Below are positions 12,036 through 17,439 of a stretch of DNA of 64,000 nt, in pieces; the first letter of the stretch is position 1, and each line of letters begins with the position of its first letter. A program made the translations under genes and the position numbers. The notes under the pieces were generated by a model. That model was given only the letters and a program-made list of their open reading frames with translations. It was not told the DNA's origin and made no database searches. Source of the DNA: Nocardioides perillae (lineage in GTDB: Bacteria; Actinomycetota; Actinomycetes; Propionibacteriales; Nocardioidaceae); assembly GCF_013409425.1 (NCBI RefSeq), contig NZ_JACCAC010000001.1, positions 2,232,001 through 2,296,000 of the forward strand. The letters run 5' to 3'.

Positions 12036-12533
12036 GTGCCGCTGCACGCGGTCGAGCTGCTGGCCGACGAGGCCGGGGACCACGTCGTACGCCGTGACTG
12101 GGCCTCGTTGCACGACGCGGGGCTGCCCTCCCAGCTCGACCACACCGGCGCGACCAACGCCCCCCACGTCACGCTGCTCGCCGCGCCGGCGCTGCCGCCC
12201 GACGAGGAGGTGGTGCGCCTGCTCGCGCCGCTGCTGCCGCTCGAGGTGCGCCCAGCCGGACTGCTGGTGCTGGGCGGTCGGCGGGTCACCGTCGCGCGGG
12301 CCCTCGACGTGCCCGACCCGCTGGTGGCCGCGGTCGCCGAGCTGCGCCGCGGGCTGGCGGAGCTGCCGCACCAGGGGTGGCTGCCCCACGTGACGCTCGC
12401 GCGCCGCGTCGACCGGGCGCAGGTGCAGGCCGTCGTCGACGTGCTCGGCTGGGAGGACGTCCCCCTGCGCCTCACGACACTGCGCCGGTGGGACCCCGAG
12501 GCCGGCGAGGTGACGGTGCTGGCGCGGGGGTGA
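12036..12533 (+). CDS. 2'-5' RNA ligase / cyclic phosphodiesterase-like protein (2H superfamily)
   Basis: 165 aa from GTG 12036, with GAGGGG 6 nt upstream; in-frame GTG 12021 is the alternative start. Two HxT motifs mark the 2H phosphoesterase fold: NAPHVTLLAA near residue 45 and LPHVTLARR near residue 117. Family members cleave or form 2'-5' phosphodiester bonds or open 2',3'-cyclic phosphates of RNA. It is followed by a convergent DUF1905 gene. Confidence 0.8.
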   Translation: MPLHAVELLADEAGDHVVRRDWASLHDAGLPSQLDHTGATNAPHVTLLAAPALPPDEEVVRLLAPLLPLEVRPAGLLVLGGRRVTVARALDVPDPLVAAVAELRRGLAELPHQGWLPHVTLARRVDRAQVQAVVDVLGWEDVPLRLTTLRRWDPEAGEVTVLARG

Positions 12534-12555
12534 GCCCGGCGCGGCCTCGCGCCCG

Positions 12556-12843
12556 TCAGAGGTCGACGGTCAGCCGGAGGTCGACGACGTCGCCCTCGGC
12601 CACCTGCTCCGCGCGTCGTGCCGCCAGCTTGAGCGGCACGAGGTAGGTGCCGTCCTTCGGCCACAGCGACGTGGTCCAGGTCGTCGCGCCCATCCGCACC
12701 GCCACCGGCACCATCCCCCAGCCGTAGGTCACCGCCGCCGCGGTCTCCCGCAGCTCCTCCGCCTCGTCCTCCGGCACCGCCACGAAGTGGTGCGGCGCCG
12801 GCCCCCGCCAGCAGAACACCGGCCCGCTGAACTGCAGCTCCAC
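12556..12843 (-). CDS. DUF1905 domain protein
   Basis: 95 aa, almost exactly one DUF1905 domain: a small beta-barrel beginning with ELQFSGPVFCWRGPAPHHFVAVPEDEA, then YGWGMVPVAVRMGATTWTTSLWPKDGTYLVPLK. The family has no assigned biochemical function, although some members occur fused to bacteriocin-protection (OmdA-like) domains. It is monocistronic and converges with the RNA-ligase-like gene. Its start is about 50 nt from the 26-bp tandem array, which therefore lies in its promoter region. Confidence 0.83.
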   Translation of the reverse strand: MELQFSGPVFCWRGPAPHHFVAVPEDEAEELRETAAAVTYGWGMVPVAVRMGATTWTTSLWPKDGTYLVPLKLAARRAEQVAEGDVVDLRLTVDL

Positions 12844-12890
12844 CCCGCCACGCTACTCCCCGCCACCGGTCCCCGCCGCCGACCTGAGGT

Positions 12891-13124
12891 CGAGGGGTCA
12901 CGCGCTGCTCTGCGGTCGAGGGGTCGCGCGTTGCGCACTCGCCGAGGGGTCGCGCGTTGCGCTTCGGTCGAGGGGTCGCGCGTTGCGCTCGCGTCGAGGG
13001 GTCGCGCGCTGCGCACTCGCCGAGGGGTCGCGCGCTGCGCACTCGCCGAGGGGTCGCGCGCTGGGCTCGCATCGAGGGGTCACGCGCTGCTCATCCGCCG
13101 AGGGGTCACGCGCTGGGGCGTTCG
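12891..13124. repeat. Nine-unit tandem array, exact 26-bp period
   Basis: Units begin at 12891, 12917, 12943, 12969, 12995, 13021, 13047, 13073 and 13099, always exactly 26 bp apart. Each has a conserved 17-bp block CGAGGGGTCRCGCGYTG followed by a variable 9-bp block. Variable blocks in order are CTCTGCGGT, CGCACTCGC, CGCTTCGGT, CGCTCGCGT, CGCACTCGC, CGCACTCGC, GGCTCGCAT, CTCATCCGC, GGGCGTTCG. The A variant at position 10 occurs only in edge units 1, 8 and 9, while inner units carry G. The array fills most of the 434-nt gap between the DUF1905 and HNH genes; the rest of that gap (13125-13277) contains no gene I can support. Confidence 0.9.
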
Positions 13125-13277
13125 GGTGGTCAGGGAAGCCCACCGGGACCGTGTCGAGGCGGAGATCCCGGCGAATTGTGGGCCGTTGCTCGTGCACAGG
13201 TCGACGGGCTGGATCCGTTGTCCACAGCCAGATCCACGCTGGCGGCGACTGTCGGTGGTGGCTGCTTGACTTCTCTC

Positions 13278-14870
13278 ATGACCACCAGCCCGGCACCCGA
13301 GCTCGACACCGCGATCGCGGTGCTCGACCGCGCCGGCGAGGCGGTCTTGGCGCAGCGTCGCTGGGATGCGGAGCTGATGCGGGCCGCGTGTGCATGGGCT
13401 GATCTGCACCCCGCCGACGCCCTGGATGCAGCGACGGTGGCCGGCACGTACGGCGACACCGCCCTGAAGGTCGCCGGTGCCTATGCGCCGGGGGTGACGG
13501 AGTTCGCGGTGGCGGAGTTCGCGACCCGGCTGGGGCGGTCCACCACCTCCGGTGCCGCCTACCTCGGCCAAGCACTCGTGTGCCGCCACCTGCTGCCCCG
13601 GTTGTGGGACGCGGTGCAGGCGCACCGGGTGGACGGGTGGCGTGCCCGCCTCGTCGCCCGCATGGTCCTCGGGAAGGGCCTCACCCCCGAAGCAGCCGGG
13701 TGGGTGGACCGCCACGTGACACCGGTGGCGCAGACCATCGGCGCCACCACCCTCGAACGCCTCGTCGCCGAGGCGTTGGCGCGGTTCATGCCCGACGAGG
13801 CCGAGCTCGCCCAGGCCGAGGCACGGGAGCAGCGGCGGTTCGAGGTGCACCTGGACGCCCGCCCCGGCGATGACTTGACGGGGACGGTGGACGCGAGCGG
13901 GTGTTTCGACCTGCCCGACGGGATCACCATCCACGACGCCGTCACGGAGGAGAAGCAGCGGCTACGTGCCCTCGGCGCCACCGCCGAGCCGGGACCACTG
14001 TCGGCGCAAGCCCTGCTCAACCTCGTCGTACGGGGCTCCGACGGCGTGTCCGCGCAAGCCACCCTCGACCTGGTGACCGTGGACGGGGGTCGAGCAGCGA
14101 GCCCCGGCGAGCGTGTCGAGACCCCCGAGACTCCTGCGGGTCAGTCGTCGCCGCGGCAGCGACGGAGGTATCTGCTGCACCTGCACCTGTCCGACGCCGT
14201 CCTGCGCACCTCGATGTTCCCTGGTCGTCTGGCTGCCGGGGACGGGGCGGTGGGTCGGGTGGAGGAGACCCGGGCACCGGTGACCGCGGCCGCGATCCGC
14301 GACTGGCTCACCACCGCCGGGATCGACGGGGTCGCACCCCACGTGACGGTGCTGCCGGTGCTCGACCTGAACGAGGCCGTGCACACCGAGGCCTACGAGG
14401 TGCCACGCCGCCTGGCCCACCAGACCGCTCTGACCCACCTGACGTGCGTGTTCCCGTGGTGCGGCCGGGCCGCCCGCAGGTGCGACCACGACCACGCCGT
14501 CCCCTACAACTCGGTCGACCGTGCTGGCGAAGCGGACGCGGCGGGCGAGGCGGGCGAGGCAACCATTGGGCCCGCGGGCGGGCCGACCTGTTCTTGCAAC
14601 ATCGCGCCGCTGTGCCGCTCGCACCACCGGTTGAAGACCCACGGACACGCTGCGACCCGCTGGACCCTCACACCCGCTGGTGCCGGGGCGTGGCTGTGGC
14701 GGTCACCGCACGGGGCGCACTACCTGCGCGACCACACCGGCACCCGACCACTCGATGGGCCACTCGACGGACCCCTCGCGCATGACACTGGACCACCCGA
14801 CGCCGGGCCGTCCCGTGATGCTGCCCGGCCGCACGAGGCCGACACCGGTCCACCCGCACCCGCGGACTGA
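13278..14870 (+). CDS. DUF222 / 13E12-repeat HNH endonuclease-like protein
   Basis: 530 aa from ATG 13278. The N-terminal two thirds are the helical DUF222 (13E12 repeat) domain (LDTAIAVLDRAGEAVLAQRRWDAELMRAACAWADLH). The C-terminal HNH zinc-finger motif has C-x3-C in FPWCGRAARRCDHDHAVPY, then CNIAPLCRSHHRLKTH with conserved His and Cys positions. After it comes a Pro/Thr/Asp-rich tail (RPLDGPLDGPLAHDTGPP). Such genes are multicopy in many actinobacterial genomes (REP13E12 in mycobacteria); the activity is assumed to be DNA nicking or cleavage but is uncharacterised. A ~150-nt leader including TTGTCCACAG separates it from the 26-bp array. Confidence 0.88.
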   Translation: MTTSPAPELDTAIAVLDRAGEAVLAQRRWDAELMRAACAWADLHPADALDAATVAGTYGDTALKVAGAYAPGVTEFAVAEFATRLGRSTTSGAAYLGQALVCRHLLPRLWDAVQAHRVDGWRARLVARMVLGKGLTPEAAGWVDRHVTPVAQTIGATTLERLVAEALARFMPDEAELAQAEAREQRRFEVHLDARPGDDLTGTVDASGCFDLPDGITIHDAVTEEKQRLRALGATAEPGPLSAQALLNLVVRGSDGVSAQATLDLVTVDGGRAASPGERVETPETPAGQSSPRQRRRYLLHLHLSDAVLRTSMFPGRLAAGDGAVGRVEETRAPVTAAAIRDWLTTAGIDGVAPHVTVLPVLDLNEAVHTEAYEVPRRLAHQTALTHLTCVFPWCGRAARRCDHDHAVPYNSVDRAGEADAAGEAGEATIGPAGGPTCSCNIAPLCRSHHRLKTHGHAATRWTLTPAGAGAWLWRSPHGAHYLRDHTGTRPLDGPLDGPLAHDTGPPDAGPSRDAARPHEADTGPPAPAD

Positions 14871-14888
14871 CCACAGCGCGTACGCCAC

Positions 14889-14932
14889 CGGGTCTCGACA
14901 CGGGCCTGACGGCCCTGCTCGAGCAACGAACG
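14889..14932. repeat. REP-like hairpin element, copy 1
   Basis: The element contains GGTCTCGACACGGGCC, a short stem (GGGCC-TGAC-GGCCC) and CTGCTCGAGCAACGAA. It resembles palindromic intergenic repeats common in GC-rich actinobacteria. A second, diverged copy lies at 15036-15080 in the same 239-nt gap after the HNH gene. I see no gene in this gap. Confidence 0.5.
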
Positions 14933-15035
14933 AGGACGTCCGGTCCTCGCAAGCCCCCACTCGACGACAGCCCGCACCCCGACACCGGGGTGACGGGCTC
15001 GTCGTGCTGCCCCGACCAGCGGGACCGTCCGGGTG

Positions 15036-15080
15036 CGGGGGTCTGGCGCGGGCCTGGCGGCCCTGCTCGACCACCGAAGG
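15036..15080. repeat. REP-like hairpin element, copy 2
   Basis: Same layout as the copy at 14889: GGGGGTCTGGCGCGGGCC, stem GGGCC-TGGC-GGCCC, then CTGCTCGACCACCGAA. The stem is conserved while the loop differs by one base (TGAC versus TGGC), which suggests the hairpin itself is maintained. It lies just past the 3' end of the minus-strand radical SAM gene and could also act in its termination. Confidence 0.5.
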
Positions 15081-15109: not shown

Positions 15110-16180
15110 TCAGAAGGCGTAGCGCACCCGGCAACCCGGGAGGCGCTGCTCGACGAGGTCGGTCAGCTGGCCGACCCAACGGCCCTTCCAGCCGGTGCGG
15201 TAGCGGACGTTGCGCTGGCCCGACTGCGACACCTTGGGCTGCTGCAGGTCAGGGCGCCACAGCTGGTCCTCGCCGCGCGGGTGCCAGCCGAGGTTGACCT
15301 CGTGCAGCTGCTCGTTGTGCGTGAGGAAGATGATCTCGCAGGCCAGCTGAGCGCGCGCTCGCTGCCCCACGCCGTCGGCCACCTGCTGGAGCAGCTCGTC
15401 CCACTGCGCGAGCCAGCCCTCGTGGACGACGACGGGGGAGAAGTTCAGGTGGACCTCGTAGCCAGCCTCGACGAAGTCGTCGATCGCCGCGATCCGCTCG
15501 GCGATGCGCGACGTGCGCAGGTCGAGGACCTTCGACTGCTCCTCCGGCATGAGGGAGAAGCGCACCCGGGTCCCGCCGCGGGGATCCCAGGTGAGCAGGT
15601 CGCGGTTGACGAACTTCGTCGCGAACGAACCCCTCGCGCCCGGCAGCCGCGCGAACAGGTCGACCAGGTCGCGGACGTTGTCGGAGACGAGCGCGTCGAC
15701 GGAGCAGTCACCGTTCTCGCCCAGGTCGTAGACCCAGTCGACGGGGTCCACCTGGTTCGGCTCGGTCTTGGGTCCCTGCCGCCCGGCGTGCCGCTCGAGG
15801 TAGCCGAGGATGCGCTCGATGTTGACGAAGACCGTGATCGGGTTGGCGTAGCCCTTGCGGCGCGGCACGTAGCAGTAGGAGCACGCCATCGCGCAGCCGT
15901 TGGACGTCGACGGCGCGATGAAGTCGGTCGAGCGACCGTTCGGGCGAGCGGCGAGCGACTTCTTCTCACCCAGCACGAGCACCTCGCGCTTGTTGCGCAC
16001 CCAGTCCGCGACCGCCCCGGCGTTGCCGTGCAGTGCCGGGATCGCCTGGTGGCTGAGCACCTCGACGCGCTCCGCGTCGGGGAAGCGGGCGAGCACCTCC
16101 GCGCCGCGCGCGAAGCGGTCGATGCCCGGCTCGTGGAAGATCGTGCGGACGTCGAGCATCCGCTCCGCATGCGTGCGCAC
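15110..16180 (-). CDS. Spore photoproduct lyase (SPL) family radical SAM protein
   Basis: 356 aa. I prefer the GTG at 16180 because GAGGGGG lies 8 nt upstream. The radical SAM cluster motif C-x3-C-x2-C reads TSNGCAMACSYCYVPRRKGY (about residue 95). Further SPL-family blocks are DWVYDLGENGDCSVDALVSDN, KFVNRDLLTW and VRFSLMPEEQ. Family members cut a C-C bond in UV-induced spore photoproduct, but many homologues occur in bacteria without endospores and their substrate is unknown. It lies 12 nt downstream of a second radical SAM gene of the same superfamily, so the pair is an operon. Confidence 0.83.
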   Translation of the reverse strand: MRTHAERMLDVRTIFHEPGIDRFARGAEVLARFPDAERVEVLSHQAIPALHGNAGAVADWVRNKREVLVLGEKKSLAARPNGRSTDFIAPSTSNGCAMACSYCYVPRRKGYANPITVFVNIERILGYLERHAGRQGPKTEPNQVDPVDWVYDLGENGDCSVDALVSDNVRDLVDLFARLPGARGSFATKFVNRDLLTWDPRGGTRVRFSLMPEEQSKVLDLRTSRIAERIAAIDDFVEAGYEVHLNFSPVVVHEGWLAQWDELLQQVADGVGQRARAQLACEIIFLTHNEQLHEVNLGWHPRGEDQLWRPDLQQPKVSQSGQRNVRYRTGWKGRWVGQLTDLVEQRLPGCRVRYAF

Positions 16181-16192
16181 CGAGTCGCCCCC

Positions 16193-17335
16193 TCAGGTCC
16201 AGTAGAGCAGCGGCGCGCCCGGGAGCCGCTCGGCCACGGCGTCGGTGAACCACGCCTTCATCTCGGCCATCGTCTCGCGGGGGTAGACGTGCTTGACGCC
16301 CCCGAACTTGGTCCGCTTCTCGGCGCGCTGCGACTCGTCCATCTCGAGCCGGGTGCGCGGGTACCACCCCGTCAGCACCTCCTTGCTCGCCGGCGTGAAG
16401 CGGTGGGTGATGAGCTCGACGGTGAGGTCGAGCCCGGGCACGTCGGCGGTGGCGGCCGCCGCGGCGTCCAGCAGACCGGCGTACGACGTCTGCCAGCCGT
16501 CGACGGGCATGACCGGGGCGACCGTCAGCCCGACGGGGTAGCCCGCGAGCGCCATCCGCCGCAGCGCCGCGAGCCGGGCCGCGACCGGGGCCGTGCCCCC
16601 CTCGAAGCGGTCGGCGACCTCGTCCACGTTGACCGAGGCGCGCATGCGGGTGCGGCCGCCGTGGGGGAGGTCGAGCAGCTCGTCAACGCCGGCGTACTTG
16701 GTGGTGAAGCGCAGGGAGGCGTCGCCGTGCTCACCGCGACCGACGCGCGCGATCGCCGCGCCGAGCGAGCCGGTGAGGTGCTCGAGGCCGAGCGGGTCGG
16801 TGTAGCAGGACAGCTCGAAGGTGGTGCCCTCGTGGCCCCGCGCGTCGGTGCCGCTGGTGACGCCGCCCCGGCCCACGTGGGTGTCGATGCCGGCGAGCAC
16901 GTCCTCGAGGTTGGCGTGCACGCGGGTGATGGGCGGTCCCGAGAGGGAGCCGGCGAGGTAGCAGTACTGGCAGTGCGCGGGGCAGCCGCGCGCCAGGTCG
17001 AGACGCCAGTCGGCGCTGGGCGGGATCGGCTGCGGCTTGAGCACGCTCGGCGGCGCGACCACCAGCGCCATGGTCGCCTTGGCACGGGCGTAGACCTCGC
17101 GCTCGGAGCCCTCGGACAGCCCGGTGATGCGGTCGGAGGTGAGCATCCGGACGTCGGTGACGCCCGCGGCCTCGCAGCGGCGCAGCACCTCGGCGGTGTG
17201 CGGGCGCTCGGCCGCCGAGCGGGTCACGAGCACGTGGCGGGGCACCCACGGGCGCGGTGTGCGTCGCGCGGGTGCGGGCCGCGCGGCGAGGTCCTGGTCG
17301 GAGGTGGTGGGCGCGGGGGAGAGGGTCTGCGTCAT
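16193..17335 (-). CDS. Radical SAM protein, SPL-like
   Basis: 380 aa from ATG 17335 (a GTG five codons upstream is possible). The cluster motif is RGCPAHCQYCYLAGSLSGPP (C-x3-C-x2-C, about residue 117). Downstream blocks VHANLEDVLAGIDTHV, FELSCYTDPLGLEHLTGSLG and RTRMRASVNVDEVADRFEGG parallel those of the adjacent SPL-family protein, indicating ancient paralogy. It presumably reduces SAM to a 5'-deoxyadenosyl radical. The two proteins may work together on the same lesion or cofactor. The start lies in a ~100-nt region shared with the divergent small membrane protein gene. Confidence 0.8.
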   Translation of the reverse strand: MTQTLSPAPTTSDQDLAARPAPARRTPRPWVPRHVLVTRSAAERPHTAEVLRRCEAAGVTDVRMLTSDRITGLSEGSEREVYARAKATMALVVAPPSVLKPQPIPPSADWRLDLARGCPAHCQYCYLAGSLSGPPITRVHANLEDVLAGIDTHVGRGGVTSGTDARGHEGTTFELSCYTDPLGLEHLTGSLGAAIARVGRGEHGDASLRFTTKYAGVDELLDLPHGGRTRMRASVNVDEVADRFEGGTAPVAARLAALRRMALAGYPVGLTVAPVMPVDGWQTSYAGLLDAAAAATADVPGLDLTVELITHRFTPASKEVLTGWYPRTRLEMDESQRAEKRTKFGGVKHVYPRETMAEMKAWFTDAVAERLPGAPLLYWT

Positions 17336-17439
17336 CACCCTGCACAACACGGGCCGGCGGCCTCGACATCCCCCGACGTGGCCACCCGCAGGGGTGGCAA
17401 CGGCAGCATCCTCTCGAGCGAGGCGGGTACGGACCCGAG

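Follow-up and report, generated by a model that had tools for sequence, protein, structure and literature searches.

Dispersed 26-bp tandem arrays in Nocardioides perillae, and a Vsr-like nuclease gene as their likely driver

To our knowledge, one class of enzyme, the Y1 transposases, has so far been linked to the spreading of short extragenic repeats through bacterial genomes. Tandem repeats that lie between genes and near stop codons are also familiar in the actinobacteria from the mycobacterial MIRU/VNTR loci, which resemble the arrays described here in these respects, but have longer units and are not known to have a linked nuclease. According to excerpts of PMC3116915 and PMC3733652, the REPIN-RAYT systems, or REPtrons, are characterised by dispersed extragenic repeats, inverted pairs of these, a repeat-flanked gene, many families and a location near stop codons. 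In the TIRtrons (TIRYT), too, a gene is enclosed by inverted repeats, of which dispersed copies exist in some cases. The nuclease genes discussed below have a similar layout, but in the excerpt of PMC3733652 the TIRtron genes are Y1 transposases. Multi-copy DUF222-HNH genes, which the genome studied here also carries, are known from Mycobacterium as 13E12/REP13E12, and the available part of PMC10589994 mentions no flanking arrays. Finally, the accessible part of PMC12907096 traces a DNA-damage response in Caulobacter to VsrA, a Vsr-like DUF559 protein. It shares a DUF559/PD-(D/E)XK nuclease with our candidate, but is linked to cytosine methylation, and the same part of that text mentions no arrays.

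The subject of this work is a tandem array in the window, i.e. the whole stretch of 64,000 nucleotides of N. perillae that was analysed. On balance we think it likely that this array is a dispersed copy of a 26-bp family driven by a nuclease gene, here called S, in a system similar to REPIN-RAYT where a Vsr-like nuclease takes the place of the Y1 transposase. The likeness is that the S gene lies between inverted repeats, that the same repeats are dispersed extragenically and that each gene has a private repeat. Unlike in REPIN-RAYT systems, S is a Vsr/MTES_1575-type nuclease and not an HUH Y1 transposase, and its repeats are mostly tandem 21-32-bp units (YCGAGGGGTCR... here) rather than single palindromes with a GTAG tag.

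The array occupies 12891..13115 on the plus strand and consists of nine 26-bp units with the consensus YCGAGGGGTCRCGCGYTGSGCWNNNG. The CGAGGGGTCRCGCGYTG core matches exactly nine times, at starts 12891, 12917, 12943, 12969, 12995, 13021, 13047, 13073 and 13099, and the core-to-core step is 26 bp throughout, both in the exact-match scan and in TRF. The nine units and the exact period given in the preliminary description are thus confirmed, as is its remark that an A at core position 10 is restricted to units 1, 8 and 9 of this array. Its end of the array at 13124 has to be corrected, as the last core ends at 13115. It had also divided each unit into a conserved core and a hypervariable 9-bp filler; the repeated core stands, but several filler positions are near-fixed. 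Over 266 units of this genome, G is found at position 25 in 257, G at position 19 in 234 and C at position 20 in 244, which leaves 18, 21-24 and 26 as the positions that vary. A scan of the window that allowed 3 mismatches was uninformative (11 matches vs 8.6 expected).

We regard the array as probably a repeated DNA element that is recognised by a protein. An Rfam scan of 12,500-13,500 gave no match to an RNA family, and a hairpin within a single unit was considered and dropped, with positions 10 and 26 showing no pairwise covariation. The spacers are not unique as they are in a CRISPR: their letters are partly conserved and they recur, with 93 kinds among 266, and cas models found nothing among the scanned neighbours in the window.

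The same core is spread over the host genome, a Nocardioides genome of 3,613,620 bp, with 307 matches at up to 1 mismatch versus 0 for the reversed pattern. The 31 regions analysed (30 fetched stretches and the window) hold 47 groups, 45 of them with at least two units and two single copies, for a total of 326 units; an additional two-unit site at 152,584 (L092) lies outside the 45-array analysis. From one unit to the next within a group, the distance is 26 bp in 266 of 283 cases. A plain dispersed repeat, in the terms of the preliminary description, would consist of hundreds of scattered copies without fixed spacing. There are indeed hundreds of copies, but they keep their spacing. Dispersed, high-copy extragenic repeats, as expected of a REPIN-RAYT system, are found in this genome, in N. 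acrostichi and in N. terrae.

How far is the repeat conserved among relatives? None of 214 other genomes from the genus yielded the 26-bp core pair. A pair of the YGAGGGGTCR head, 6-30 bp apart, was found in 22 of the 214, while the reversed control matched in 3 genomes with one match each; some of the head-pair matches, for instance those at periods of 12 or 36, could be coding sequence or repeats of another kind. Units recur every 22 bp in N. acrostichi (130 of 133 gaps), mostly so in N. terrae, and every 21 bp in genome G001. The tail of the repeat varies by species and the CGAGGGGTCR head is common to the relatives examined. As the usual period is 21 or 22 in relatives versus 26 here, the spacing value itself is not conserved, although the relatives stay periodic; a loss of spacing conservation in relatives, named earlier as a sign against selected spacing, therefore holds for the value and not for the periodicity. 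Relatives that repeat this head every 21 or 22 bp lend no support to the selection on helical phasing proposed earlier, which we reject.

The related proposal, that the array is a set of iterons, or a site where several proteins bind in helical phase for plasmid-type replication or partition, has in its favour the 26-bp direct repeats at fixed spacing. Against it stand the 45 arrays over one chromosome, a plasmid search with the window array that gave no match, and the same difference in period between this genome and its relatives. We give this reading next to no weight. Iteron identity was rejected in view of the neighbours in the window (DUF1905, HNH and SPL genes) and the chromosome-wide arrays.

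To the left of the array, a DUF1905 protein is encoded on the minus strand (12556..12843) with its start facing the array. To the right, a leader on the plus strand (13116..13277) is followed by an HNH endonuclease-like gene of 530 aa (13278..14870, plus strand), which we call class 2. Other class-2 arrays have the start of this leader, GGGCGTTCGGGTGGTC..., at their inner end as well, and several arrays linked to DUF222 genes have a related form of it there. A trailer on the plus strand, 3′ of the stop codon (14871..15076), is conserved among class-2 copies; the alignment of L078 with the window extends about 206 bp beyond the stop codon. Leader and trailer are both conserved in class-2 copies and thus belong to a repeated element, of which the window array forms the front. 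Beyond it lies a spore photoproduct lyase (SPL) family protein (15110..16180, minus strand; TIGR03886). Two adjacent minus-strand genes occupy 15110-17350, the second of which aligns at 25-30% identity to the SPL family protein of relatives. A hairpin-like repeat, GGGTCTCGACACGG...CTGCTCGAGCA, is found at 14890-14925, 3′ of the HNH stop, and similar sequences are located on the outer side of several arrays in this genome.

The class-2 gene has nine copies in this genome, including that in the window, each 3′ of an array; these were drawn from regions fetched for arrays, so that array-less copies would be missed. A further class-2 relative, 61% identical, is present among the proteins of this genome. 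The window gene itself has no Pfam match at E <= 5, PF02720 or PF01844 is present in some relatives that are about 40% identical to it, and a scan of two HNH proteins with defence models gave no match. At L087:5478-6686 an IS110-type transposase gene separates an array from its class-2 gene.

A possible owner of the arrays would be the HNH/DUF222 proteins themselves, with the array as the site that the adjacent HNH nuclease binds or homes to. Here, 10 of the 14 DUF222 matches have a plus array to their left and a minus array to their right, the nine class-2 genes lie behind an array, and DUF222 genes of genome G049 and of N. acrostichi likewise follow array units. However, in other genomes inverted flanks were found at 3 and missing at 29 of the 32 DUF222 loci, which is why our first idea, that the arrays are the exclusive partner of DUF222-HNH genes, was dropped. 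Furthermore, in both N. acrostichi and G049 the units that precede DUF222 genes are similar to the unit of an S gene of the same genome, and 11 of the 31 array regions here contain neither kind of HNH gene by phmmer, their arrays often forming touching plus/minus pairs. We therefore rate HNH ownership as improbable. The preliminary description was right to expect a nuclease as partner, but the best-supported one is the Vsr-like S gene some 583 kb away and not the adjoining HNH/DUF222 gene. One DUF222 copy of this genome (L074:5349-6700) is interrupted and reads as two pieces.

The S gene of this genome (2,827,787-2,828,707) lies between inverted 26-bp arrays. The lead to it came from array-enclosed genes, of which three, in N. 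terrae (L210), N. acrostichi (L272) and this genome (L082), gave matches to MTES_1575 and, in part, to DUF559/AbiEi models; two other enclosed genes belong to unrelated families (beta-lactamase fold; DinB/MST). A search of six genomes with PF18741 returned 23 places, which were split by sequence and flanks into 11 S loci and 12 non-S loci. In a Pfam scan of the 11 S proteins, MTES_1575 was found in 11, DUF559 in 9 and AbiEi_4 in 7; the MTES_1575 scores of the S members shown lie under the Pfam curated cut-off (e.g. 26.7 and 32.9 bits vs 38.2). In precomputed annotation, PF18741 is carried by most of 120 S homologues among the matches listed. Two S proteins scanned with defence models gave AbiEi matches over the N-terminal part. 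MTES_1575 is described as a Vsr-family nuclease domain in an excerpt of PMC3710099. The S proteins share a conserved E-Y-D-G motif, which is presumably catalytic. A plasmid search with one S protein gave two weak matches.

Among PDB entries, 3r3p, 'Mobile intron protein', gave a weak profile match (E 0.035) that we treat as a lead only. We take this entry to be I-Bth0305I, a Vsr-like homing endonuclease, and presume that it and S probably belong to the same nuclease fold family. Such an enzyme is, as S may be, part of a mobile element, but we know of no dispersed repeats for this type of homing endonuclease. A homing endonuclease gene interrupts the site that it recognises, within a conserved gene, an intron or an intein, and the S genes examined sit between repeats. 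The Pfam scan of the 11 S proteins included no match to a Y1 transposase model, and a simple HUH-like pattern was seen in 1 of 34 S proteins. Having looked in the S proteins for a Y1 enzyme and in the units for the palindromic, GTAG-tagged form and found neither, we do not file S as a member of REPIN-RAYT.

S is found in at least 173 of 195 genomes of the genus (E <= 1e-25), and of 393 genomes sampled from the class, 199 contain matches. This genome has at least one match at E <= 1e-25 (11 of 51 candidates scored), with one found, and N. acrostichi has at least two, with two distinct units. Sister species carry the S gene at the same locus, with the same neighbours in three of four sister groups and partly shared ones in the fourth, so that the gene looks resident.

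To test for inverted flanks, each locus was compared with 20 mononucleotide shuffles, and among the 30 genus loci fetched, 28 of the 29 testable ones exceed the best shuffle; L328 is cut by a contig end and stands outside the test, and four of the 30 are genes that had already prompted the idea. Seven further idea-prompting loci all exceed their shuffles (7/7), with L304, L306 and L318 barely doing so. As S was delimited partly by flanks, the first 11 loci are no independent test. Among 27 later S loci, a set from which L355, L339 and L343 were left out of the retest, 26 have inverted flanks, including 13 of 13 from other genera (L361 barely above the shuffles). No inverted flank was found at L334 and L372. 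In the controls, 13 of 80 random genes exceed their shuffles, a rate inflated because these genes came from loci chosen for arrays, and 6 of the 12 non-S MTES_1575 genes do so. Inverted flanks are thus not exclusive to S.

The units differ from S gene to S gene. Over 34 loci, S protein identity correlates with unit similarity (r 0.54; 0 of 9,999 permutations as high), where four unit phases were set by hand after the flank results and L328 was dropped for the contig end. Sister S loci share neighbours, so this correlation partly reflects common ancestry. A better test of the unit-nuclease linkage is the match in trans. For 13 dispersed units from seven genomes, hand-picked from listings, the S unit of the same genome ranks first of 35 in 11, and in 9 when the tail alone is used; the ranking fails for the G049 unit and for one of two G148 units. 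Both S units of N. acrostichi recur elsewhere in its genome. The second family, which flanks S gene L302, has 29 matches when up to 4 mismatches are allowed, spread over 9 of the 48 loci searched (369 kb, with some overlap), and 0 in the reversed control. At L202:2248-2267 and L203:2220-2283 of this species, DUF222 genes are preceded by L302-type units and not by the CGAGGGGTC family.

Neutral tandem duplication of the MIRU/VNTR kind, by slippage or gene conversion and with no dedicated enzyme, would readily give strict periods and homogenised units. It leaves unexplained, however, the dozens of unlinked sites, the inverted placement at 54 of 56 testable S loci and an anchoring to stop codons. 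We consider such an origin very improbable.

This anchoring is seen in N. acrostichi, where 41 of 52 arrays, taken from loci found by a three-unit pattern, begin within 30 bp 3′ of a sense stop codon (antisense control 10/52), and 24 begin 3-5 bp past it. In this genome, 11 of the 16 arrays outside nuclease loci begin within 30 bp past a stop, against 4 of 47 in an antisense control over all arrays. At nuclease loci such starts are seen at 5 of 20 arrays of DUF222 genes, 1 of 9 of class-2 genes and 0 of 2 of the S gene. The gene calls came from a simple script based on GC position, so that these distances are approximate. Among the 28 neighbouring array pairs listed for the relatives, all 25 with opposite orientation are plus-then-minus, i.e. 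convergent (19 sites, as six are double-counted).

Post-stop starts and convergent pairs are also what would be expected if the arrays were 3′-end terminators or insulators of use to the host, paired between convergent genes, and the nuclease genes had merely settled in a safe niche. That said, some arrays lie behind a hairpin that already looks terminator-like by eye (L197 and the flanks of L082), and the units vary between species and even within one genome. S and DUF222 genes also bring arrays into other contexts: the window array has the divergent DUF1905 and HNH genes on its two sides and is thus no 3′ element of the gene to its left. Nor would a terminator role explain why a dispersed unit matches the S unit of its own genome. 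We find this explanation unlikely, though it deserves more weight than the other alternatives.

Returning to a spread driven by S, the AbiEi-like domain at the N-terminus, for which the family name predicts a winged helix, would recognise the unit, and the C-terminal nuclease would cut in or beside it. Repair may then copy segments of the array to new sites, of which those just behind stop codons would survive selection. HNH genes of two kinds would have joined as passengers, now travelling with arrays that lie at their ends or precede them. Mobility and cleavage are both inferred. The main gap in this model is the insertion step, as no array was caught as an insertion. We found no empty-site pair, and the SPL locus in 5 relatives has neighbours other than those of the window, making that comparison uninformative on an empty site.

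For the Actinomycetia as a whole, we judge it an even call that there is a second, independently evolved counterpart of REPIN-RAYT, in which an AbiEi-Vsr nuclease reads a private 21-32-bp word and writes tandem arrays behind stop codons throughout the genome, and HNH elements that ride on the repeats share them. Among the titles and abstract starts listed for open-licence papers, we found no description of nuclease-linked arrays of this kind. If confirmed, the S layout would provide, with a nuclease of a different fold, an independent test case for the spread of extragenic repeats. Matches to S occur in about half of the genomes sampled from the class, although flanks beyond the genus were examined at only 13 loci. 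A role would be given to the abundant 'DUF559/AbiEi' and HNH/DUF222 genes, which frequently carry the annotation 'hypothetical', and natural pairs of protein and DNA word would become available by the dozen for specificity studies.

The form of the flanks varies. The best upstream period is 21 or 22 in 29 of the 30 genus S loci, some not above the shuffles, and in other genera periods of 17, 21, 22 and 32 occur, or inverted repeats without a clear period. Arrays with a period of 31-32 accompany S genes in and beyond the genus (L359, L363, L365, L367, L369, L374 and L376). Among the non-S MTES_1575 genes, L320, L308, L303 and L322 have inverted, partly palindromic or repetitive flanks; of five inspected by eye, L303, L308 and L320 have palindrome-like repeats on both sides. 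This suggests that the flank layout is wider than the S subfamily. The first 11 S loci mostly have clear inverted arrays, with L318 degenerate, and a few S loci, such as L323 and L380, carry palindromes. At L323 (G001), each flank is a plus/minus palindrome of one unit, near to the classical REP pairs.
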